Assembly (NCBI GenBank): GCA_027068485.1
Contig: JAMOSB010000006.1
Location: 1 to 34,600, forward strand
Origin: Sulfurovum sp.
GTDB taxonomy: Bacteria > Campylobacterota > Campylobacteria > Campylobacterales > Sulfurovaceae
Direction of reading: 5' to 3'
Length of the DNA stretch: 34,600 bases
Below, piece by piece: positions 18,233 through 34,508 of the stretch (its first letter is position 1; the number at the start of each line of letters is the position of its first letter). Under the pieces are notes generated by a model. The model did not search any database and had not been told where the DNA came from. It saw only the letters and a list, made by a program, of their open reading frames with translations. The position numbers and the translations under genes are program-made.

Positions 18233-18293
18233 AGATGTCTTTTGAGTATTTTTAGTTACAATTTTTATGAGTAGTTTAATTAAAGGTAGTCTT

Positions 18294-19121
18294 ATGAAGT
18301 ATCACGCTATTGATGTAAGAGTTTTGGATAGAGTAAAACCACCCTATTTTATAGGAGCGATGCTTCGTGGGGCATTGGGATATACACTCAAAAAGGTTGT
18401 CTGTATCAATCCCTCCTATCAGTGTGAGGGGTGTTTTGATACTTCTCGTTGTCTCTATTATGATTTTTATGAGCGAGAGAATGTTCAGCACCTTTTTCGT
18501 CTGGATCTCGTATTGGAGAGTGAGTGTTATCGTTTTGGACTCTATCTTTTTGGTGATGCGTGTGTAAAACTTCCCTATCTTCTCTTAGCTATAGAGAAGG
18601 CATTGAAGGAGAATGGTCTAGGAAGAGCGCGTCTGAAGTTTAACGCGGTAGAGATCTATGTCGATGGAGAACCCGTCTATCAAGAGGGTGCTTTCCTAGC
18701 AGACCTCACCTCCAAACCGCAATCATTAATCTCCTCTGGCTATTGTCCCAATCTCAAGATCCAGCTCCTCACCCCTCTGCGTATCAAACAGAGTAATAGC
18801 GTGGAATATAACGATATTGGCATCAAAGATATACTACGATCTATCCATCAAAGAGTACAACAGCTATTTCATCATCAAACATGCCATAGACTCCCCTATG
18901 AGCCAAGCTATACCACTGAGATTAAGACACTTACCTATAAGCCTTTGTATCGAAAGAGTAGTAGGCAGAAGCGTTCGATTGTGCTTGATGGGGTACTTGG
19001 AGAGATGGCAGTCATAGGGCTAGATCAAAGAAGCTATGACCTTCTAAAGATTGGAGAGGTGATTGGTGTAGGCAAACAGACAGTTTTTGGAATGGGGAAG
19101 ATAAAAGTAGCAAAAATTTAG
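18294..19121 (+). CDS. cas6: Cas6 pre-crRNA endoribonuclease
   Basis: 275-residue RAMP-fold nuclease that should cut the CRISPR transcript within repeats. The C-terminal glycine-rich loop GVGKQTVFGMGKI is typical of Cas6, as is the segment FIGAMLRGALGYTLKK near the start. A four-cysteine cluster (Cys37, Cys44, Cys47, Cys53) follows, a feature of one Cas6 subfamily (the PF10040-type), likely a metal site. Start 18294 was chosen because AAAGGTAG lies 4-5 bases upstream and the RAMP strand begins at once; an ATG 27 bases earlier lacks a ribosome site. It is unfused, unlike Cas6-RT-Cas1 proteins in some other RT-CRISPR systems. The expected cut leaves an 8-base handle, as in the array repeat. Confidence 0.86.
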   Translation: MKYHAIDVRVLDRVKPPYFIGAMLRGALGYTLKKVVCINPSYQCEGCFDTSRCLYYDFYERENVQHLFRLDLVLESECYRFGLYLFGDACVKLPYLLLAIEKALKENGLGRARLKFNAVEIYVDGEPVYQEGAFLADLTSKPQSLISSGYCPNLKIQLLTPLRIKQSNSVEYNDIGIKDILRSIHQRVQQLFHHQTCHRLPYEPSYTTEIKTLTYKPLYRKSSRQKRSIVLDGVLGEMAVIGLDQRSYDLLKIGEVIGVGKQTVFGMGKIKVAKI

Positions 19122-19210: not shown

Positions 19211-21043
19211 ATGGAAATAGAACACATATTTAATGCTGTATCTAAAAAGCCAAAGAATAATAAAGAGATAGCTTCACAAGAGTGGAAAGTGGGGTATTGG
19301 AAGAATGAAAATCTAATTTATGAAGCCCCTACAAGTATGGAGTTACTTAAACAAGATTTCTCTAAAATGTACTATAACGCATTGATTCCTACAGATGATA
19401 ATAAAATCATCTCTAAGTATGATGACGAAAAGTTAAAAGGTTTAGTTAAAACTTTAGGAGATGATTTACTTTTAATCAGTGGAGATTTCTGGGGAATTCA
19501 AAAGTTTATTTTTGATGGTGTTACTACCTCAAAAGCCTCTAAGATTTTAAGAAGTCGTTCGGCTATGGTTCAGCTTATTACTTATGCTGTGGTTGATAGA
19601 ATCAAAAAAGAGTTTAATGGAAGTGAAGCTCTGCTTTTTGGAGCAGGTAAATTTATGATTTTGGCTAAAAATGAGAATAGAGAAAAAATTAAAGTGATTC
19701 AACAAGAGCTAGATAGCTATTTTTTAAAGAATTTCTTTGGTCAGAATGGGTTTATCTTATCAAGCACTCTTACAACAGGAAAAAAGCTTTTAAATCAAGA
19801 GGATATGGAAGACGATTTAAAAGCATTGGGTGCAGATAATGAGAGTAAGAAGCTTAATAAATTTGACCTTTTAACTGTAGACGATGAGGAGATTTTGATT
19901 AATCCTTTTGAAGGTGCTTGTAGGGATGATGATATTTGTGAGTTTTGTAGTAAACGACTTAAAACGCATAATGTAGATGATACCAAAGCGTGTAAAATCT
20001 GTTTTAATGAGATTGAGTTGGGTAAGCATTTAACTAAAAAACCTTATGTGACTATTTTTGCTTCTTCTACGGAGAAGAGTAAAAAAGATATTTTGATTAT
20101 CTCCTTGGGTGGTCAAAACTACTATGCAAAGTTTGAAGATGCGGTAACACAAGAGGGAGATAGCTTTGATATAAGCTCTAAAGCCTATGTTGATTACCCT
20201 AAATGGTCATTGAACTCGTATGTTCCCAAAGATGAATTTGATGAAATTATTACCTTTGGAAATTATCTAAAAGAGGATAATCAAGAAGATGGAAAAGTGA
20301 TTAGCTCTGGATTAATGGCACTAAAAGCCGATATTGACAAACTGGGTGATACCTTTAGAGACCTCTATAAAGAAGACTTTAGAAAGTTTAATAGACTCTC
20401 ACGAGAGGTTGAGTTCTTTTTTTCGGATTATATTACGACCTTAGTTGCTAAACGAAAAAATCTCTATACCGTTTTTGCAGGTGGCGATGACCTCTTTTTG
20501 ATTGGAGAGTATCGAGAGATAGTTGCCATAGCCAAAGAGATAAGAGAGGAGTTTTATAGATTTTCACTAGAGAAGACTACCATCTCTATGGGGCTTGTGA
20601 TGTTTAAGCCCTCTACACCCATAACTTTTGTCTCTGATATGGCAGATAAGGCAGAGAAGAGAGCCAAAGGAGAGAGAGATAGTATTGATATTTTTGGTGT
20701 CTCTATGAAGTTTGAAGCGTTTTATCAGATAGAGAAAGATTTTAAAGAGGTTACCGATTTTTTAGAGAAAGAGGATGATGATAAAACAGCTCTCTATTAT
20801 AGACTTATTGAACTTTGTGATATGAAAGAGAATATAAAAAATGATATACGCAATGCGATGTGGAAGTCAAAGTTAAACTATCTTTTCAGACGCAATGTGA
20901 AGCGAGAAGATAACGACAGTAAGATTTTTACAAAGCTAAGTGATTTAATCGAGAAGGGAGAGAAGTTTAAATCTCTGCTTTTTTTGAAAATTTATAATAA
21001 TCGAGATAAAAATAAGGAGAAAAACAGTGAAAAAATTGGTTGA
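19211..21043 (+). CDS. cas10: Cas10/Csm1 lacking the HD domain
   Basis: Large subunit of the type III-A complex; on target-RNA binding it makes cyclic oligoadenylate. The 610 residues begin near the first palm domain (LLLISGDFWGIQKFIFDG, about 87-103). A zinc finger has Cys243/246 and Cys261/264, and the second palm has LKADIDKLGD (371-380) and VFAGGDDLF with GGDD at 424-427. The N-terminal HD nuclease domain of usual Csm1 is absent, and the 89-base gap upstream has no room for it. So DNA cleavage by Cas10 is not expected while cOA signalling is. AGGAGAGGA lies 9-13 bases before the ATG. Base composition is visibly more AT-rich than the host genes. It overlaps csm2 by 17 bases. Confidence 0.92.
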   Translation: MEIEHIFNAVSKKPKNNKEIASQEWKVGYWKNENLIYEAPTSMELLKQDFSKMYYNALIPTDDNKIISKYDDEKLKGLVKTLGDDLLLISGDFWGIQKFIFDGVTTSKASKILRSRSAMVQLITYAVVDRIKKEFNGSEALLFGAGKFMILAKNENREKIKVIQQELDSYFLKNFFGQNGFILSSTLTTGKKLLNQEDMEDDLKALGADNESKKLNKFDLLTVDDEEILINPFEGACRDDDICEFCSKRLKTHNVDDTKACKICFNEIELGKHLTKKPYVTIFASSTEKSKKDILIISLGGQNYYAKFEDAVTQEGDSFDISSKAYVDYPKWSLNSYVPKDEFDEIITFGNYLKEDNQEDGKVISSGLMALKADIDKLGDTFRDLYKEDFRKFNRLSREVEFFFSDYITTLVAKRKNLYTVFAGGDDLFLIGEYREIVAIAKEIREEFYRFSLEKTTISMGLVMFKPSTPITFVSDMADKAEKRAKGERDSIDIFGVSMKFEAFYQIEKDFKEVTDFLEKEDDDKTALYYRLIELCDMKENIKNDIRNAMWKSKLNYLFRRNVKREDNDSKIFTKLSDLIEKGEKFKSLLFLKIYNNRDKNKEKNSEKIG

Positions 21044-21440
21044 AGATATTTCTTTTAAAGAAGAAGATGGACAGTTAGCAGAGCTATTTAGTAGTAAAGC
21101 AGAAGAGATGGCAAAGTGTTTAAACAATAGAGAAAGAAAAGAGAGAGAAGAGAGATATAAACCTGATATATCAACAACCCAATATCGAAAATTTTATGAA
21201 AAAATTTTAGAGTTAAACGAAAAAGCAAAAGGGTTAGATGAGGTTGCTTTTAAAATCAAAGTTTTACCATTTGTCAAGATGTTGAACTCTAAAGTACAAT
21301 ATTCAAAAGAGAGAAAACACTCTGGAGCTAACTTTGTAGCGTTAATGGAGACCTCAATTAACGCCGTAAACTCTGCTCATGAGTTGCAAAATTTTAAGTA
21401 TCTGTTAGAGTCAATTATCGGTTATATGCCAAAAAAATAA
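21027..21440 (+). CDS. csm2: Csm2 small subunit
   Basis: 137-residue all-helical small subunit that lines the crRNA-target duplex in the Csm complex. TTQYRKFYEKILELNEKA and KVLPFVKMLNSKVQYSKERKHSGANF correspond to the Csm2 motifs (Ser/Thr-Gln-hydrophobic-Arg-Lys-Phe and MLxxKxxYxxxR). The start is GTG at 21027: AAGGAG lies 7 bases upstream, inside the cas10 end. The first 45 residues, rich in Glu, Lys and Arg, are probably disordered or helical. It sits between cas10 and csm3 as in other type III-A loci. Confidence 0.85.
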   Translation: MKKLVEDISFKEEDGQLAELFSSKAEEMAKCLNNRERKEREERYKPDISTTQYRKFYEKILELNEKAKGLDEVAFKIKVLPFVKMLNSKVQYSKERKHSGANFVALMETSINAVNSAHELQNFKYLLESIIGYMPKK

Positions 21441-21450
21441 GGAGAAGAAG

Positions 21451-22224
21451 ATGGAAATAGTAAAAATAGATGGTTTAGAGAAGTTAAAGTTAATAACAGG
21501 TCTTCATATTGGGGCGAGTGATGATAGCATGAAGATTGGTGGGGTTGATTCTCCTGTTATTACACGAGAGGTTTTAGCCGATGATGAGGGAGAGGTTAGT
21601 TTTGGTGGTAGAAACAAGATTATTGAACCTTATATTGCAGGAAGCTCTATCAAGGGTAAGGTTCGTTCACTCTTAGAACTCTACTTTAGATTGATTGACC
21701 CAACAGAGTCAGATGAGAAAAAACGGGGAATCCCAATTAATAGCAGAGCTACTTTTGGAGAGAAGAGAAAAAGAGATTTGATTATTAAGCTCTTTGGAGA
21801 GGGTTCGGAGTTTAAAGATTCAAGTGAAGCTTTTAATGTAACACGGGTTATCTTTAGAGACTGTTTTATTACCAATGAGATTAGAAAAGCAACCATAGAT
21901 AATAGAATAGAGCTGTTTGAAGAGAAGGCTGAAAATGTTATAGACCGAGCCACGGGAGCGACCAAAAATGGTGGACTACGACACATTCAACGGGTTGTAT
22001 CTAGTGTAGAGTTTGAGTTTGATTTGTCTATTCGAGTATTTGATGGAGAGGATAGAAAGCTATTTGAAAATACCATTCTCTTGGGGCTAAGACTCTTGGA
22101 GCTTGATGCACTAGGAGGAAGTGGAAGCCGTGGTTATGGTAAAGTTGAGTTTGTAAAGATTGAACACTCTATAGAAGCGTTAAGAGATGCGGTAGAAGAT
22201 GGGCTTAAAAATGAGACTCATTAA
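21451..22224 (+). CDS. csm3: Csm3 backbone RAMP, target-RNA nuclease
   Basis: Forms the helical backbone and cuts target RNA at 6-base intervals in type III-A. The 257 residues include the catalytic aspartate in KIGGVDSPVI (Asp33, the same number as in well-studied Csm3), the thumb/loop IAGSSIKGKVRSLLELY, and the C-terminal glycine motif GGSGSRGYGKVEF. This suggests full RNase activity. AAGGAG lies 6 bases before the ATG, 10 bases after the csm2 stop. AT-rich codon use like its neighbours. Confidence 0.95.
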   Translation: MEIVKIDGLEKLKLITGLHIGASDDSMKIGGVDSPVITREVLADDEGEVSFGGRNKIIEPYIAGSSIKGKVRSLLELYFRLIDPTESDEKKRGIPINSRATFGEKRKRDLIIKLFGEGSEFKDSSEAFNVTRVIFRDCFITNEIRKATIDNRIELFEEKAENVIDRATGATKNGGLRHIQRVVSSVEFEFDLSIRVFDGEDRKLFENTILLGLRLLELDALGGSGSRGYGKVEFVKIEHSIEALRDAVEDGLKNETH

Positions 22225-23098
22225 GCTAAAGATAACACCTCTTAGCTCATTTGTAACTTTTCCAAAGGGAGATACACTCTTTGGACATTTTGCTTATCTC
22301 TCCTTTTTGAAGAAAGAGAAAATATTTGAAAACTATACTACAGATAAGAAACCAAAAATTATCTTTTCTGATATTTTGCCCGATAACCATTTTTATAAAC
22401 CAACGCTCCCTTTAGATGCGTTTGGAGTAGATGAGAGCCAAAAGAAAGAGTTTAGAAAAAAGAGCTGGATAGGTTATGAAGATTTACAAAAAGGTGCGTT
22501 AAAAGAGTCTGTAGAGTTAACATTTATGAAAAAAGAGTTTAAGGTACGAAATACTTTAAACAGAGTCTCTTTTACTACAGATAGCAGTGGTATATTTGCT
22601 CCTTATGGTTTAGAAGAGACTACTTTTGTCTATCAACCTGTTATTTATGTAATGTTTGACAACACCTTTACAGACCAAGAGATTGAAGATAGACTCAATG
22701 AGATGGGAAGAAATGGTTTTGGTAAAAAAGGAAACATTGGAAAAGGGTATTTCAAAGCAAAAATTGATAAGCGTTTTGATGGATTTAAAAAGATAAAAAC
22801 CGAAAACTGCTATATGATGACACTCTCTCCAACACTCTTGCATAAATCTAAAGAGATGATAGCCGATAAAGAGGTTTACTATAACACTTTTAACCGTTTT
22901 GGAAAACATCATAGCTCTTCGACACCTTTTAAAAAGCCTCTGCTTATGGCAGATAGTGGAGCAGTGGTTAAACTAAAATCTTATGAACAATACATAGGTG
23001 GTGGAATAGACAATGGTATAGGTCGCCAATCATTGGTACAGGGTTTCTCTATTTTAGTACCCTTTGAGTTTGAAGGAGTCAATCGTGGCAAAGCGTAA
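22211..23098 (+). CDS. csm4: Csm4 RAMP, 5'-handle-binding subunit
   Basis: Csm4 caps the 5' end of the crRNA and contacts Cas10. The 295 residues begin MRLIKLKITPLSSF, a RAMP first strand, followed by GDTLFGHFAYL (the region where Csm4 has GDSLFGA). Later, NGFGKKGNIGKGYFKAK is the glycine loop. IGGGIDNGIGRQSLVQGF ends the second RAMP fold. The start at 22211 begins the first strand directly; an ATG four codons earlier is also possible. It overlaps csm3 by 14 bases and csm5 by 14. Confidence 0.9.
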   Translation: MRLIKLKITPLSSFVTFPKGDTLFGHFAYLSFLKKEKIFENYTTDKKPKIIFSDILPDNHFYKPTLPLDAFGVDESQKKEFRKKSWIGYEDLQKGALKESVELTFMKKEFKVRNTLNRVSFTTDSSGIFAPYGLEETTFVYQPVIYVMFDNTFTDQEIEDRLNEMGRNGFGKKGNIGKGYFKAKIDKRFDGFKKIKTENCYMMTLSPTLLHKSKEMIADKEVYYNTFNRFGKHHSSSTPFKKPLLMADSGAVVKLKSYEQYIGGGIDNGIGRQSLVQGFSILVPFEFEGVNRGKA

Positions 23099-24491
23099 GA
23101 TAAATATGGATTCACTTGTTAGCTCTTATGGTAAAACACAACAGCAGAAGAGTAAAAAAGCCGATGAATCAAAGAAAAAAAGAGAGCAAGAGCAGAGAGA
23201 AGCCAAAGCTTTAAAAGAGAAGCACGAACAAGAGGAAAAGGAGAGAGCAGAATCCGAAAGATTGGCTAAAATTGAAGCCAAAAAAAGAGAGTTAGAAGCC
23301 AATGAATTAAAAACTTTTAAGCTAAAGCTTACAGCACTCTCTCCGATTCATATTGGAAGTGGAGAGGAGTATGAGCCGACAAACTATGTGATTAAAGAAG
23401 ATAGACTCTACGCTTTTAATGAACATGTTGTTATTGAAAAGCTTTATGAACGAGATAAAAAACTTCCAAGTGATGATAAGCTCTCTGATATGTATGCTCT
23501 TGTGGCTTTTTTTAGAGAAGAGGCTAATTTTATTATTGATAATAAGCTTTATATTCATAGTGTCTCTATCTCTAAAGATATATCAAAACTCTATAGCAAA
23601 GATTTTGGTATAAGTAACAATAATGATGAGTCGATGAATCAGATGCTTATATTGAAACATATCTCAACTTTTAACCCTTATAGTGGCAATTTTGAACCCT
23701 ATATTGCAGGAAGTTCAATTAAGGGAGCGTTACAGAGTGTATTGGAGCTGTCTGTAGAAGAGAGTCAAAAATTAAAAGTTTCTGATGCCATAGGAAAAGA
23801 GGTTAAAAATCATATTGCGTGGAGTGTTAGAAAAACATCCAAAGGAAGTATTGCTCAAAAACTTGAAATTATTCAAAAAAATTCAAGCTTTGAGGCTCTT
23901 TTAACAAAAGTTAATGCTTTAGAGATAGAGACCATTAAAGAGAAACTGCATACTTTTTATCAAAATGCAGATATGGGACTTTTTTTAAATTATAAAAAAG
24001 ATTTGAAATCAAATGAGGGTTTGTTGCGAGTAGGTCGGTATTGTGGTAAAGCGTTTATAGTAAAAGATTTAGCAGAGAGTGAAAAACCTAAAACCAAATC
24101 TATCTTTAGAATGAGCGAAAAAGGTAGCCGTGTTGATGAGGTCTCTTTTGGTTGGCTTAAGTGGGAAGTGATGGAAGATGACGCTAATAAAAAAGATAAA
24201 ACTGTAGAGAAAAAAGATTTAACTTTAAAAGAGGAGATAGAAGAGCTTATAGCCAACAATCCAAACAGAAATGATACAGATGATATTGTTATTTTTAATG
24301 CTATTAAGAGTGGAAAGTTTGATAGCTTTAAAGCCGAAGCTTTAGACTGGTTAAAAAATAAGATGCAAGAGTTGGGTAAATGGGTGGAGAAATCTAAAAA
24401 CCCCACGAAAGATAAAAAGTATAAACGGACTTTGGATGTTTTGGAGATGATGAAAGAATGTAAATACAATAAAAAAGAAACTCTAAACTAG
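23085..24491 (+). CDS. csm5: Csm5 RAMP with charged N-terminal extension
   Basis: Csm5 binds the 3' end of the crRNA and is implicated in its maturation. Of 468 residues, the RAMP domain begins at about 77 (FKLKLTALSPIHIGSGEEY), contains AGSSIKGALQSVLEL, and closes with a long variable C-terminus. Residues 1-76 form an unusual extension: a short lead (MAKRKINMDSLVSSYGK) then an almost purely Lys/Glu/Arg helix (about 20-75) predicted to be a single alpha helix or coiled coil. Csm5 usually starts at the RAMP strand. The start is GTG at 23085; AAGGAG is 6 bases upstream, whereas a TTG 21 bases earlier has none. Last gene of the compact csm run. Confidence 0.88.
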   Translation: MAKRKINMDSLVSSYGKTQQQKSKKADESKKKREQEQREAKALKEKHEQEEKERAESERLAKIEAKKRELEANELKTFKLKLTALSPIHIGSGEEYEPTNYVIKEDRLYAFNEHVVIEKLYERDKKLPSDDKLSDMYALVAFFREEANFIIDNKLYIHSVSISKDISKLYSKDFGISNNNDESMNQMLILKHISTFNPYSGNFEPYIAGSSIKGALQSVLELSVEESQKLKVSDAIGKEVKNHIAWSVRKTSKGSIAQKLEIIQKNSSFEALLTKVNALEIETIKEKLHTFYQNADMGLFLNYKKDLKSNEGLLRVGRYCGKAFIVKDLAESEKPKTKSIFRMSEKGSRVDEVSFGWLKWEVMEDDANKKDKTVEKKDLTLKEEIEELIANNPNRNDTDDIVIFNAIKSGKFDSFKAEALDWLKNKMQELGKWVEKSKNPTKDKKYKRTLDVLEMMKECKYNKKETLN

Positions 24492-26252: not shown

Positions 26253-27500
26253 ATGATGCAACAGACTAAGATGACAAAAGAGATGAAATTTAAGATGCTA
26301 TTAGAGTACCTAGAGGATTCTAGGAGTATTTTGGAGCAAGATAAGAAGAAATTAATGGAGAAAGTTAATTTGAAAGTGAAAGAATTTTCACTCTATCTTG
26401 GAGCATTATGCCATATTTTTCCAGACTATTTAGTCTGTACTCCTACCCACAATAATGAGTTGGAGTGTAGACAAATACAATCACTCTCCAATATCGATAA
26501 GATGATAAAAGAGAATCTCAAAAAACTTACAGCAGAGGTAAAGCTCTCCAATGATAAAGCCCTTAGAAAATATCGGATTATTTTAGAAGCATTTCACAAT
26601 AAAAAGGTTTTGGATAGTTATGATAAAGCCCTCCAAGAGAGCTTAGGGGAGATGTCGCAACGCAATTTGGATAAAGAGTTGAAGAAGTTTGTAGAGGTGT
26701 TTGATAATATAAAAGAGGTAAAAGAGGGTAAAAAAAATACCTATAAACTGATAAAGCCATTAGATATCTTTATTGAGTCCTTTGATCACGCTAATGAGAT
26801 AGGGTGGTTTTTCAATATGGCTCACGAGAGTGATCCCGAGTTCTTTGCAGGGTTGGAGCAGTTTACTCGTAAAGATAAAGATCTCTATCTCTTTAAAAAC
26901 ACACCTTTTGAAGATACTTCTACAATAGAGTCAAGTCAAAACTTCCAAAGACTCAAGAGAAACATAGAGGCAAGAGAGTATACAAAGATTAAATATCTCT
27001 ACGATACAAAAGAGTATGATAATCTTAAGCCTATCAAGCTAGTATTTGTAGATAATAACTGGTATGTTGCTCTGGTTGATACTGATAATATTCTTAGATT
27101 TGGTCGACTTAGTTTTATTGAGAGAGTGGATTATGGGTCTAAGAGGGGACACTTTCAGCCATCATCTATCGCGAAACAAAAGGAGTTTTTACTTCAAGAA
27201 CTTCAAAATGCGATGACACTATATGGTCAAGAGAAGCAAGTGGCCAAACTCAAAGCCTCGCCAGCCATAGCGAGGTACTTCCAAAAAGATATGAAAAAGT
27301 TTCTCTCCTCTCAGCAGTTTATCCAAGAGCTTGAGGATGGAAGCATCGAGTTTAGTGTAGAGTATACACAATACTTAGAGGTTCTCCCTTTTGTTCAGAA
27401 GTGGTTGCCTGATTTAGTTATATTAGAGCCACGAGAGTTGAGAGATGTCTACACTATGAAATTAACTACAATGCTACAAAATATGAAGGGTATCAAATGA
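26253..27500 (+). CDS. WYL-domain regulator coupled to a CARF-HEPN RNase
   Basis: 415 residues. The centre, IKLVFVDNNWYVALVDTDNIL then FGRLSFIERVD (about 260-295), matches a WYL domain, and the C-terminus (ARYFQKDMKKF, LEDGSIEFSV, VILEPRELRDVY) matches the WCX extension. WYL proteins are usually ligand-binding transcription regulators and several act on CRISPR operons. The N-terminal 180 residues are helical, Lys/Glu-rich, and lack a readable HTH of the usual kind, so DNA binding is uncertain. Its stop overlaps the next ATG (ATGA), so it is made with the CARF-HEPN RNase. AT-rich like the csm genes. Confidence 0.82.
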   Translation: MMQQTKMTKEMKFKMLLEYLEDSRSILEQDKKKLMEKVNLKVKEFSLYLGALCHIFPDYLVCTPTHNNELECRQIQSLSNIDKMIKENLKKLTAEVKLSNDKALRKYRIILEAFHNKKVLDSYDKALQESLGEMSQRNLDKELKKFVEVFDNIKEVKEGKKNTYKLIKPLDIFIESFDHANEIGWFFNMAHESDPEFFAGLEQFTRKDKDLYLFKNTPFEDTSTIESSQNFQRLKRNIEAREYTKIKYLYDTKEYDNLKPIKLVFVDNNWYVALVDTDNILRFGRLSFIERVDYGSKRGHFQPSSIAKQKEFLLQELQNAMTLYGQEKQVAKLKASPAIARYFQKDMKKFLSSQQFIQELEDGSIEFSVEYTQYLEVLPFVQKWLPDLVILEPRELRDVYTMKLTTMLQNMKGIK

Positions 27501-28969
27501 AAAAGGCAGTTATCACGATGTTAGGACTATTGAGTCATACGCAACCAAAGTATATCTGTAATAATGGAGAAGTAGAGAGGAGTTTTGAAGAGATGCAATT
27601 AGAAGATAGAGCCAACTATCTATTCTCAGAAGAGTTGAGTGGTTTTGCTCAGAATTTAACACAAAATCATTATATCAATACACTTCCCCTACTTATTGAT
27701 GTATTTAAAGATAGGGATATTATCCCTATCGCTACACCAAAAGCAAAAATGATTCAGGAACAATCATTAAAGTTTTTAGCAGTAGATGGGAGTTGTTTAG
27801 ATCATACTGTATTGATTAGTGAGTCTAATTATGAAGAGATTTTTCAAAAAATCTCTGAACTCCTACAAAATGAAACCTATGAGAGTTTTATTATAGATTT
27901 GACTCATGGGTTTAGGCATCTTCCCATTTTGATGATTGTCAATCTTATTATTGCATCGATTAAAGATGTAGAAAAAATAGAACATATCTTCTTTGCTAAA
28001 GAGATTGTTCCTTTTAAAGAGTATAAGATTATTGATCTACTTGATTATATTGATCTAGCCAAACTCTCTTTTGTATTAGAGAATTTCAATACAAATTATA
28101 CTGTTGGGAACAAGCTAGTTTTTAGAAAACCAGAGTATCAAGGTCTGGTAAATAGCCTTCAGGAGATCTCTGAACATATCTTGGCAAACTCTATTAAAAG
28201 ATTGCTTAAACCTGATGAAAACCTGATTCAAAGTACTATAGATAAGCTACAGGTCTTACAAAAAGAGGATACCTATATCGCTACTTTTTCCCACTCTATT
28301 GGTAGTATCATAGAGCATCTAGGAAAAATCGAAATCCTCAAAGATGAAGAGGAGTACATCAAGCTCTTTAAGTTTGCAGAAGTTATGCAAAAAAGAGATT
28401 ATCTCCTGAACTCTATCACACTCTTAAATGAGTCAATAGGGATGTTTTGTATTAAGCAGTTGATGAATATGGGAGATTCTATCGAACCTTTTATCAAAGC
28501 GTATCAAATCAAGATAGATCAAGCAGAGACTAACAAAGATAAGAAAGAGTTTAATATCTATAAGCTATCTCATCAATCTAAAAATATTATTAAGTTAGGC
28601 AATGGATTTAAGGGTGAGTTCCTCTCTAGTGATTCCATGAAAAGGAAAATCCTCGATAAGTTAAGAGAACAACATAATCAAAAGTTAATAGACTTAATCG
28701 ACAGAGTAGGAGATTTGAGAAATAATTTAGCTCATGGAAATAGTTCAGATGAGAGACAGGATGTTGAGTCGGAGATAAATAGTCTCTTAAAAGAGTATCA
28801 AACAATAGCTCGAATCCCTAATACTATTGATCTCAAAGCAAAAGAGAAGGAGCTACGAGAAAAAGCATTGAAAAAGCAAAAGATGAGAAAACCAAAAGCC
28901 AAACCAACAGGTATAGATGCACCTAGAGAGGAGATCGATAAACTTCAAAATATTTTTAATGGTAGATAG
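27497..28969 (+). CDS. CARF-HEPN ribonuclease, Csx1/Csx2 (TM1812) type
   Basis: 490 residues, type III accessory effector expected to be activated by cyclic oligoadenylate. The CARF-domain motif IIDLTHGFRHLPI (about 132-144) corresponds to the DxTHGFR loop in the TM1812/Csx2 family. The C-terminal HEPN domain has the RX4H motif in DLRNNLAHG (Arg408, His413), the RNase catalytic pair. A highly basic tail (EKALKKQKMRKPKAK) follows from about 455. It is the only evident cOA effector in the window and is coupled to the WYL gene through ATGA. No separate ring nuclease is recognised. Cognate cOA ring size cannot be inferred. Confidence 0.88.
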   Translation: MKKAVITMLGLLSHTQPKYICNNGEVERSFEEMQLEDRANYLFSEELSGFAQNLTQNHYINTLPLLIDVFKDRDIIPIATPKAKMIQEQSLKFLAVDGSCLDHTVLISESNYEEIFQKISELLQNETYESFIIDLTHGFRHLPILMIVNLIIASIKDVEKIEHIFFAKEIVPFKEYKIIDLLDYIDLAKLSFVLENFNTNYTVGNKLVFRKPEYQGLVNSLQEISEHILANSIKRLLKPDENLIQSTIDKLQVLQKEDTYIATFSHSIGSIIEHLGKIEILKDEEEYIKLFKFAEVMQKRDYLLNSITLLNESIGMFCIKQLMNMGDSIEPFIKAYQIKIDQAETNKDKKEFNIYKLSHQSKNIIKLGNGFKGEFLSSDSMKRKILDKLREQHNQKLIDLIDRVGDLRNNLAHGNSSDERQDVESEINSLLKEYQTIARIPNTIDLKAKEKELREKALKKQKMRKPKAKPTGIDAPREEIDKLQNIFNGR

Positions 28970-29432: not shown

Positions 29433-29840
29433 ATGTTACCAGTAACTTTGATCGCACCAATTGTCAAATCTCTTCCCCTAGCGGAGATCGTCCCTTTTGT
29501 CAATACCCTACTCAACCACTCTGCCAATATGGCACGCATTGAGAAGGAGTATCAGTATAAGAGACAAGAGCTGAAGTACCACTACAAGCTAGAGTCTCAG
29601 CGGATAGAGTCTCAGCTCAAAGCCTTTAAGGTGATGGCAAAACACCAACAGCATCGCTTTGAGATAGGTCATAAAGAGCGTAAAGAGATCCTCAAAACGA
29701 TGCGAAGCCTTGCCACGAATCCGATACCTGCAAACCAACAGTTGATGGCACGACTGATGGAGGGGTATGAGCAGAGCCTACAAGACTCTGTGGGGCTTGC
29801 ACTTCCTAGTACCAATCAGATGATTGAAGGGGGGAGATAA
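29433..29840 (+). CDS. Coiled-coil protein, unknown
   Basis: 135 residues. A hydrophobic amphipathic N-terminus (MLPVTLIAPIVKSLPLAEIV) precedes a long charged helix (about 35-100: ARIEKEYQYKRQEL, ESQRIESQLKAFK), then a loose C-terminus. No recognised family. AAAAGG lies 6 bases before the ATG; possible -10 boxes (TATAGT 29397, TATACT 29403) lie just upstream. Its stop overlaps the next ATG (TAATG). Both proteins begin MLP and share a hydrophobic-then-coiled-coil layout, suggesting partners. Confidence 0.7.
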   Translation: MLPVTLIAPIVKSLPLAEIVPFVNTLLNHSANMARIEKEYQYKRQELKYHYKLESQRIESQLKAFKVMAKHQQHRFEIGHKERKEILKTMRSLATNPIPANQQLMARLMEGYEQSLQDSVGLALPSTNQMIEGGR

Positions 29841-30199
29841 TGTTACCATTTCTTATCGCTGGAGCAGCACTACTTTTGGTCGGAGGGGCAGTCCTTGAGG
29901 AGCGTGAGAGCAGTGCCAAACGACGCAGTACCCAAAAGCTAACAAAGCAAAAAAAATCCTATGAGCAGATGCTTCATCGACAATATCACAAGAGTCAAAA
30001 GAGTAAGAGCCACATACTCTTCAGGCAAATCAAAAATGAACAGACCAAGCTCAAAGCAGAGCGTCGTAAGCTCTATGGTATCCTCAACTCCCTCAAACGA
30101 GGCTCTCAACCCTATCGTAATCTTGAAGAGAAGATCGGGTATCTCAGTCAGCTGATCGAAGGGAAGCAACGCGATGCGGATAGGGTGCGTCAGGTCTAA
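29840..30199 (+). CDS. Membrane-anchored coiled-coil protein, unknown
   Basis: 119 residues. N-terminal membrane segment (MLPFLIAGAALLLVGGAVL, 1-19), then a strongly basic coiled coil (SSAKRRSTQKLTKQKKSYEQ onward) to the end. The membrane helix followed immediately by positive charge predicts a cytoplasmic body. Translationally coupled to the preceding gene (TAATG, GGGGAGA as ribosome site). No recognised family; part of a small-gene run before cas2. Confidence 0.7.
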   Translation: MLPFLIAGAALLLVGGAVLEERESSAKRRSTQKLTKQKKSYEQMLHRQYHKSQKSKSHILFRQIKNEQTKLKAERRKLYGILNSLKRGSQPYRNLEEKIGYLSQLIEGKQRDADRVRQV

Positions 30200-30260
30200 A
30201 CGATGCCCCCAAAGAGGGTTTTAGAGAAAATGTGTTAGGATAAAAATCAGAGGAGAGGTG

Positions 30261-30446
30261 ATGGCATTATCATTGATTGGTTTTGGGTGTATAGGAGAGA
30301 TAGGTATAGGGGTGGCGGTGATACCTACAGCTATAGTCGTGACAAGCGTCGTGGCGGGTAGTGCGATCGCGATAGGAGCATGGTATGGACTCTATCGTAT
30401 GGTAATAGCACAGCACAATAGTCCCCACTCCATAGATCTAGACTAG
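30261..30446 (+). CDS. 61-residue glycine-rich membrane protein
   Basis: Product starts MALSLIGFGCIGEIGIGVAV with a long Ala/Gly/Ile/Val hydrophobic region (about 1-50) that can form two helices joined by a short turn, ending HNSPHSIDLD. AGGAG lies 5 bases before ATG 30261 (a GTG one codon earlier is possible). It ends 13 bases before cas2, so it may be cotranscribed with the adaptation genes. Family unknown. Confidence 0.6.
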   Translation: MALSLIGFGCIGEIGIGVAVIPTAIVVTSVVAGSAIAIGAWYGLYRMVIAQHNSPHSIDLD

Positions 30447-30459
30447 GCTAGTGTGTAAG

Positions 30460-30735
30460 ATGAAACTACTACTCACCTATGATATTCAAGAGACCAAGGT
30501 AAGAACCCGACTCTCTACACTGCTAGAGAGTTATGGGAGACGGGTCAACTACTCTGTCTTTGAACTCGATATCAAACAGCACAAGCTCAAGGAGCTTCTC
30601 ACGGATATTGAGCAGTTTGGTACAGCACAAGACTCAATCCGACTCTATTACTTTTGTGAAGAGAGTATTGCCAAGTCGATAGAGCTTCGAGCCAGACCAC
30701 AACCTTTTGTTAAAGAGCGTGCCTATGTTGACTAA
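30460..30735 (+). CDS. cas2: Cas2 adaptation subunit
   Basis: 91-residue ferredoxin-fold protein that bridges Cas1 dimers in the spacer-integration complex. It begins MKLLLTYDIQETKVRTRL, with the conserved Asp8 after the first strand, and contains YGRRVNYSVFELDI (family motif: R-V-x-x-S-V-F-E) and DSIRLYYFCEES. The start is ATG 30460; a GTG 9 bases earlier is less likely. It overlaps RT-cas1 by 11 bases, showing that the two are made together. Composition is closer to the host than to csm genes. Confidence 0.95.
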   Translation: MKLLLTYDIQETKVRTRLSTLLESYGRRVNYSVFELDIKQHKLKELLTDIEQFGTAQDSIRLYYFCEESIAKSIELRARPQPFVKERAYVD

Positions 30736-32929: not shown

Positions 32930-33068
32930 CCTAAACTATTTACAGACTTTTTAGTTAAGATTAGATTCAGCAAAAAAGCTCTTACGGTCGCTAAATAGGG
33001 GATCTGCTCTCCTGCTAGGGGTAAATCAAATGTTGGCAAATCATCTCTTTGTCTCTAGGTATGGTATG

Positions 33069-33279
33069 GTTTGCAAACATTTAGATTGACTTCAGTTTTA
33101 AGCTCCCCTGTAGAGGGACTTTCTCATCTTAATCTTAACTGAATCTTTGTAGATCGATTCAAATCGATATCATCGTGAGGAGTTTACAAACTTTTTAAAG
33201 GAGTCAACTGCCCATACTATGGGCATCTTAAGTCTTATATAAGCCAAATCAGACTATTCTTCAAATGTAGTTTGCAAAC
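33069..33279 (+). repeat. Three palindromes of the GTTTGCAAAC family in the leader
   Basis: GTTTGCAAAC at 33069-33078, GTTTACAAAC at 33182-33191 and GTTTGCAAAC at 33270-33279. The third extends to the perfect 12-base palindrome AGTTTGCAAACT. The second and third are followed by TTTT. A weaker relative, TTTACAGACTTTTTA, lies near 32940. They look like binding sites for a regulator or integration host protein. Confidence 0.6.
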
Positions 33280-33357
33280 TTTTGCATAGGCTCCTTAACA
33301 TCGTACTGTTAAGTATAGATGATTGGAGAATACTGTATCGATTTCCCATACTATGGG
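33210..33357 (+). repeat. Two copies of CCCATACTATGGG in the leader
   Basis: GCCCATACTATGGGC (33210-33224), a perfect odd palindrome around a central C, recurs as CCCATACTATGGGC (33345-33358), which ends directly before the first array repeat. The terminal copy is where a leader-anchoring site would lie; the upstream copy is about 135 bases away. Confidence 0.6.
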
Positions 33358-33359
33358 CT

Positions 33360-34508
33360 ATCAATACACTACTACCCCGACATAGGGGATTGAAACACTG
33401 GCACGGATCTTACGATATCACCATCACTATTTGTATCAATACACTACTACCCCGACATAGGGGATTGAAACATGATCATGGAGACTACCTCTTCGCCTTT
33501 GACAAATCAATACACTACTACCCCGACATAGGGGATTGAAACGAAGGACCAAATTTATCCCATTTAGCTTTTTGTGTTGATCAATACACTACTACCCCGA
33601 CATAGGGGATTGAAACCCTATCATTGGCGTGATAACCATTGTCTTATCTTTATCAATACACTACTACCCCGACATAGGGGATTGAAACTCTTTTGTTGCT
33701 TTATCTAGACCGTTTAAGTCTGTTAATCAATACACTACTACCCCGACATAGGGGATTGAAACTCTGTATTCATTTTGTTTTCCTTATTTGGTTGTTTGTT
33801 ATCAATACACTACTACCCCGACATAGGGGATTGAAACACTAACTCTTCATTGTTGATATAACCACATAGTTGGTGTATCAATACACTACTACCCCGACAT
33901 AGGGGATTGAAACTTATATTGGTTGAAGTTACCACCGCCAACATATGGGTTCATCAATACACTACTACCCCGACATAGGGGATTGAAACATGAAGTCGTT
34001 GTTTTTTCTGTCGTATTTATTACATTTATCAATACACTACTACCCCGACATAGGGGATTGAAACATAAACGCTTCACATTTTCTCTGCCCCGCCTCGCTG
34101 AAATCAATACACTACTACCCCGACATAGGGGATTGAAACATGCTTTTCTACCGTAATTAATCTTACCTTGTACGGTACATCAATACACTACTACCCCGAC
34201 ATAGGGGATTGAAACGACTTCCCCCCCGGTCCATACGAAGTCCTTCGGACTTCATCAATACACTACTACCCCGACATAGGGGATTGAAACACAAACTCCA
34301 ATATTTGATTTAGGGCGTCAGAATTATCAATACACTACTACCCCGACATAGGGGATTGAAACTGGTTCGCTTGTCAAATCATTCAACGGGTTGAGTATAT
34401 CAATACACTACTACCCCGACATAGGGGATTGAAACATTTCCCCCGACTCTCTGATGGCTTCTTTAGTCGCCATATCAATACACTACTACCCCGACATAGG
34501 GGATTGAA
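33360..34508 (+). CRISPR. Type III-A array, 16 repeats and 15 spacers
   Basis: 37-base repeat, starting ATCAATACACTACTACCCCG and ending ATAGGGGATTGAAAC. Fifteen copies are identical; the sixteenth (34474-34508) lacks the final AC, marking the trailer end. Repeats begin at 33360, 33435, 33506, 33580, 33652, 33726, 33801, 33877, 33953, 34028, 34103, 34179, 34254, 34326, 34399 and 34474. Spacers are 34-39 bases. Inside the repeat CCCC-GACATA-GGGG can form a small stem; Cas6 cutting at its base would leave the 8-base handle AUUGAAAC. Transcription is plus strand from the leader. No repeat interruptions. Confidence 0.99.

Follow-up and report, generated by a model that had tools for sequence, protein, structure and literature searches.

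Pyrimidine-rich, apparently mRNA-antisense spacers in a Sulfurovum type III-A CRISPR array with RT-Cas1, with spacer retention as the probable main cause of the skew

The spacers of a CRISPR array within a 34,600-nt stretch of Sulfurovum sp. DNA (the window) are pyrimidine-rich on the crRNA strand and, on statistical evidence, behave as antisense pieces of protein-coding genes. We consider it probable (roughly 0.7) that the main cause of this skew is retention of the spacers that are effective when defense is triggered by RNA, and not directional acquisition by the reverse transcriptase–Cas1 fusion (RT-Cas1) of the same locus. Nearly all spacers would be antisense to protein-coding sequence with a purine-rich sense strand, which would make the spacers themselves pyrimidine-rich. 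Type III effectors are activated only by pairing of the crRNA with a transcript; only antisense spacers would then protect the cell and be kept, while sense spacers would be useless and either lost or never enriched. We infer that retention during infection, over directional acquisition, would do most of the sorting. Orientation by RT-Cas1 at acquisition may add to the skew, although it is not needed to explain it.

The system is of type III-A, has RT-Cas1 in its adaptation module and comes from a Sulfurovaceae-like member of the Campylobacterota. Cas10/Csm1, Csm2 to Csm5 and Cas6 are all encoded, and RT and Cas1 share a single open frame with an intact active-site motif and a nearby cas2 (Table 1). 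RT-Cas1 is the sole Cas1 found in the genome; its closest relatives, ∼60% identical, come from Sulfurovum and other Campylobacterota MAGs. A gene for a MYG1-like exonuclease (PF03690; 25447-26220) lies inside the cas region between csm5 and the gene for the WYL regulator. Three short open frames (135, 119 and 62 aa) occupy 29433-30446, between the CARF-HEPN gene and cas2, and gave no confident Pfam match.

Table 1. Features of the type III-A locus and its array (coordinates are positions in the window).
Feature	Coordinates	Strand	Remarks
Cas6-like crRNA-processing endoribonuclease	18267..19121	+	PADLOC E 2.4e-45; NCBIfam 31.6 bits, under the 58.65 cut-off
Cas10/Csm1	19211..21043	+	TIGR02578, E 1.9e-102
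Csm2	21027..21440	+	above cut-off
Csm3 (Cas7)	21451..22224	+	above cut-off
Csm4 (Cas5)	22199..23098	+	above cut-off
Csm5-like	23064..24491	+	NCBIfam 37.2 bits, slightly under the 38.3 cut-off
WYL/WCX-domain regulator	26253..27500	+	
CARF-HEPN (Csx1/Csm6-like) accessory RNase	27497..28969	+	
Cas2	30451..30735	+	PF09827, E 1.6e-16
RT-Cas1 fusion, 740 aa	30707..32929	+	RVT_1 residues 64-266, FADD motif intact; Cas1 (Cas_Cas1) residues 419-695
Leader region	32930..33359	+	three GTTTRCAAAC sites, two CCCATACTATGGGC palindromes
CRISPR array	33360..34508	+	16 repeats (37 nt; last 35 nt), 15 spacers; crRNA strand is +
15 spacers	33397..34473	+	559 nt, 38.3% purine; codon-like signal on reverse complements

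A script recount of the array found 15 full copies of the repeat ATCAATACACTACTACCCCGACATAGGGGATTGAAAC followed by the shortened final copy, with spacers of 34–39 nt. The 8-nt handle ATTGAAAC stands at the 3′ end of the repeat in this crRNA-bearing array, and the plus strand is the crRNA strand, as shown by this repeat end, by a degenerate repeat at the far right and by the leader, with RT-cas1, on the left. Contig C36 opens with a further copy, which is this shortened repeat again, within a 127-nt contig overlap; apart from this overlap no further array copies were found elsewhere in the genome, and the array is therefore complete. Purines made up 214 of the 559 spacer bases (A 120, C 126, G 94, T 219), such that the pyrimidine excess resides in T more than in C, and 14 of the 15 spacers fell below one half, the exception being spacer 13 at 0.51. 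These figures reproduce exactly the hand count of an earlier sequence-only reading of this DNA (38%; 14/15), and the four peptides quoted there are all true reverse-complement readings. Spacer 12 (34216-34253) holds a 7-bp perfect hairpin, GAAGTCC-TTC-GGACTTC, and folds mildly better than its shuffles (z −1.7); it may derive from a structured RNA instead of plain coding sequence.

Chance or a miscount might be suspected in an array of only 15 spacers, and we regard this as a negligible explanation. The recount was exact, a purine fraction of this kind had P ∼5e-5 among random-strand fragments of the window of equal lengths and P ∼1e-4 among 15-spacer samples from the phylum's non-type-III arrays, and mean purine content below one half recurred in 25 of 26 RT-Cas1 arrays and in all 17 plain-Cas1 type III arrays. 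The window array lies at the pyrimidine-rich end of the type III arrays of its phylum without being an outlier (P = 0.04), and among RT-Cas1 arrays of four or more spacers it is third lowest in purine.

The leader carries motifs of its own. The GTTTRCAAAC sites are found at 33069-33078, 33182-33191 and 33270-33279, two of the three being perfect GTTTGCAAAC palindromes, and a search for GTTTRCAAACWTTT with at most one mismatch returned three occurrences against 0.06 expected, all in the leader and none elsewhere in the window. The first two sites are spaced 113 nt apart, and the same GTTTGCAAAC spacing recurs in the leaders of two other RT-Cas1 loci (L072 and L102). As a guess, GTTTRCAAAC could be a putative binding site of an array regulator, e.g. 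the WYL protein. The two CCCATACTATGGGC copies, within 33204-33224 and 33338-33358, lie 134 nt apart, and the second nearly touches the first repeat.

A signal beyond base composition was sought by scoring each spacer and its dinucleotide shuffles with a codon model built from local genes, the tables thus describing host genes and not invader genes; antisense fractions were calibrated with gene fragments whose strand is known. For the window spacers the codon signal reached z = 3.6 on the reverse complement and z = 0.0 on the crRNA strand, with composition-corrected codon gains of 0.125 and −0.015, respectively. All 15 reverse complements contained an open frame, and in a pool of RT-Cas1 arrays holding 410 spacers the reverse complement was open in 393, where 331 were expected. 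These results, and an implied antisense fraction of 95% for the 26 RT-Cas1 arrays taken together, support the earlier claim that the spacers are mRNA-antisense in a fixed orientation. The Campylobacterota stretches that were fetched have coding strands averaging 0.555 purine, and fully antisense spacers are therefore predicted to be ∼44.5% purine. The window's own genes are 0.526 purine, from which antisense host genes would predict 0.474, yet the array is lower at 0.383; this excess reflects either invader genes unlike those of the host or a further pyrimidine preference.

Arrays were gathered throughout the Campylobacterota from the surroundings of genes for RT-Cas1 and for plain Cas1, and were oriented by the repeat end; of the 46 cases that the degenerate distal repeat could decide, 42 gave the same orientation. 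The plain-Cas1 type III set comprised nine arrays at first and was later enlarged to 17, and genomes with both kinds of Cas1 were kept apart as mixed. Mean crRNA-strand purine content was 0.428 for RT-Cas1 (26 arrays, 432 spacers; arrays from related species are not fully independent samples, here and in the other groups), 0.420 for plain-Cas1 type III (17 arrays, 372 spacers; a stand-alone RT elsewhere in these genomes is possible) and 0.493 for non-type-III (32 arrays, 1371 spacers). For seven of the 17 plain-Cas1 arrays the assignment to type III comes solely from repeat family and Cas1; the other ten, whose stretches contain cas10 or csm3, averaged 0.428. The RT-Cas1 and plain type III groups did not differ (p = 0.85; 95% CI of the difference −0.016 to 0.032), whereas both departed from the non-type-III arrays (p = 1.3e-7 and p = 9e-7, respectively), all p-values being descriptive since the group boundaries were drawn mid-analysis, when some of the arrays had already been inspected. 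Codon gains on the reverse complement versus the crRNA strand were 0.147 versus 0.034 with RT, 0.118 versus 0.035 in plain type III and 0.102 versus 0.086 in non-type-III arrays, and the implied antisense fractions were 0.95 (0.86–1.03), 0.83 (0.75–0.93) and 0.56 (0.50–0.64), respectively. One five-repeat RT-Cas1 array (L091:5711-6047) has four purine-rich spacers (0.546), and another array at the same locus stands at 0.373; in the final set, the former alone exceeds one half among RT-Cas1 arrays of four or more spacers. RT-Cas1 and plain Cas1 with type III-like repeats occur within one genome at L058 and L142 (genome G062) and at L196 (genome G039), and these genomes offer natural comparisons, inside a single genome, of adaptation with and without an RT.

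Arrays reached through one Bacteroidota genome extended the comparison. The 20 RT-Cas1 arrays obtained in this way averaged 0.471 purine (p = 0.002), and the 13 of them scored first had a purine content of 0.469, coding strands of 52.6% purine and an implied antisense fraction of 0.98 (0.84–1.12). These data bear on the proposal that the adaptation or Cas6/Csm machinery simply favors pyrimidine-rich spacers, independently of mRNA. The repeat family common to type III arrays makes a shared machinery preference conceivable, and the window array is indeed more pyrimidine-rich than antisense host genes predict. Even so, we judge such a preference very unlikely as the cause of the skew: dinucleotide shuffling preserves composition yet removes the codon signal, the signal in the window is confined to the reverse complement, and a lower purine content of coding strands goes with a weaker skew (0.469 at 0.526 in the 13 Bacteroidota-derived arrays versus 0.428 at 0.555 in the Campylobacterota).

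Directional acquisition, in which RT-Cas1 reverse-transcribes mRNA and the cDNA is inserted one way so that spacers are antisense from the start, is a rival cause; the sequence-only reading had the array either filled from mRNA or selected against it, as RT-Cas1 acquisition would predict. The locus has the required parts, namely an RT-Cas1 with intact FADD and an adjoining cas2; the skew extends to the Bacteroidota-reached RT-Cas1 arrays; and the codon-based antisense fraction is nominally highest with RT, but this gap (0.95 vs 0.83) was non-significant by permutation (p = 0.10). The youngest spacers are as skewed as the old ones, with no age trend along the array and the newest three spacers no different from the older ones, but the trend is likewise missing in the plain arrays. 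Skew in the newest spacers is expected from unoriented acquisition followed by selection alone only where that selection acts quickly, in which case it is compatible with either cause. Against the proposal stands the equal purine skew of plain-Cas1 type III arrays. The comparison with arrays lacking RT-Cas1, which that reading had itself put forward as a check, found the purine skew neither absent nor weaker without RT and missing only from non-type-III arrays; its appeal to RT-Cas1 acquisition is thus not supported as the cause. A Marinomonas RT-Cas1 system without interference, moreover, gave only a moderate antisense bias, termed marginal (PMC5576922). We therefore find directional acquisition an unlikely main cause.

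Searches for protospacers produced no usable match. With blastn against phages and plasmids, the 15 spacers gave chance-level matches only, all to the T-rich spacer 6, which also accounted for the best match outside the array among 150 related genomes (E 4e-4, about chance over 150 genomes). No spacer matched the organism's own genome beyond the array at E 0.05 or better, and two other RT-Cas1 arrays searched against phages, and one against plasmids, had no match. Spacer cores, exact or codon-degenerate, had zero matches in scans of IMG/VR; the codon-degenerate patterns presuppose an antisense frame, so that a match to them would be no unbiased strand test. As none of the collections searched yielded a protospacer, the strand evidence is statistical. 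A more ambitious reading would have RT-Cas1 insert mRNA cDNA in a fixed orientation here, render RT arrays nearly all antisense from acquisition onward (above the ∼80% that selection gives plain-Cas1 type III), and draw the untraceable RT-linked spacers mainly from protein-coding transcripts of unsampled invaders; we hold this combination to be unlikely.

Retention of functional spacers is the simplest cause of the skew because plain-Cas1 type III arrays are equally skewed and because studies of Thermus and Marinomonas point the same way. In the RT-less type III system of Thermus thermophilus (PMC7515739), strand bias is not strong before selection, whereas the spacers that protect are strongly antisense; retained spacers are thus strongly antisense there as here, in that case through selection during phage infection, although that system has no RT and its spacers came from an infection experiment and not from natural arrays. 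Marinomonas mediterranea MMB-1 (PMC5576922) resembles the Sulfurovum system in having an RT fused to Cas1, a cas2 and a type III effector, such that the crRNA must be antisense to a transcript. It differs in being III-B, and its fresh spacers, acquired with interference removed, were only marginally antisense, whereas the retained spacers of the III-A Sulfurovum system look almost wholly so.

A coding-strand bias of type III spacers has already been published. Vink et al. 2021 (PMC8482600) reported that mapped type III spacers average ∼65% coding strand, and are thereby able to pair with mRNA, while several DNA-targeting types have no such preference or the opposite one; our results agree in direction, but theirs came from mapped protospacers, whereas ours are match-free, imply 83–95% and compare RT with non-RT arrays within one phylum. 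In Arthrospira, the spacers of an RT-linked III-B system are almost never traceable to protospacers (PMC5513706), as was the case here; a term search of that report gave no antisense, purine or orientation analysis, and in the present study coding origin and strand were inferred without matches. The contribution here is the match-free composition and codon test, together with the comparison of arrays with and without RT. The literature searched held no example of base composition or codon signal serving to infer the strand of spacers that lack a match.

RT-linked CRISPR spacers hardly ever match a known sequence. Base composition and codon signal provide a strand and coding test for them that requires no match. 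By this test, RT-linked spacers resemble antisense pieces of protein-coding genes, as do the spacers of type III systems that lack an RT. The claim that the RT explains the orientation can now be compared on any set of genomes, and in the Campylobacterota the RT is not favored as the explanation.
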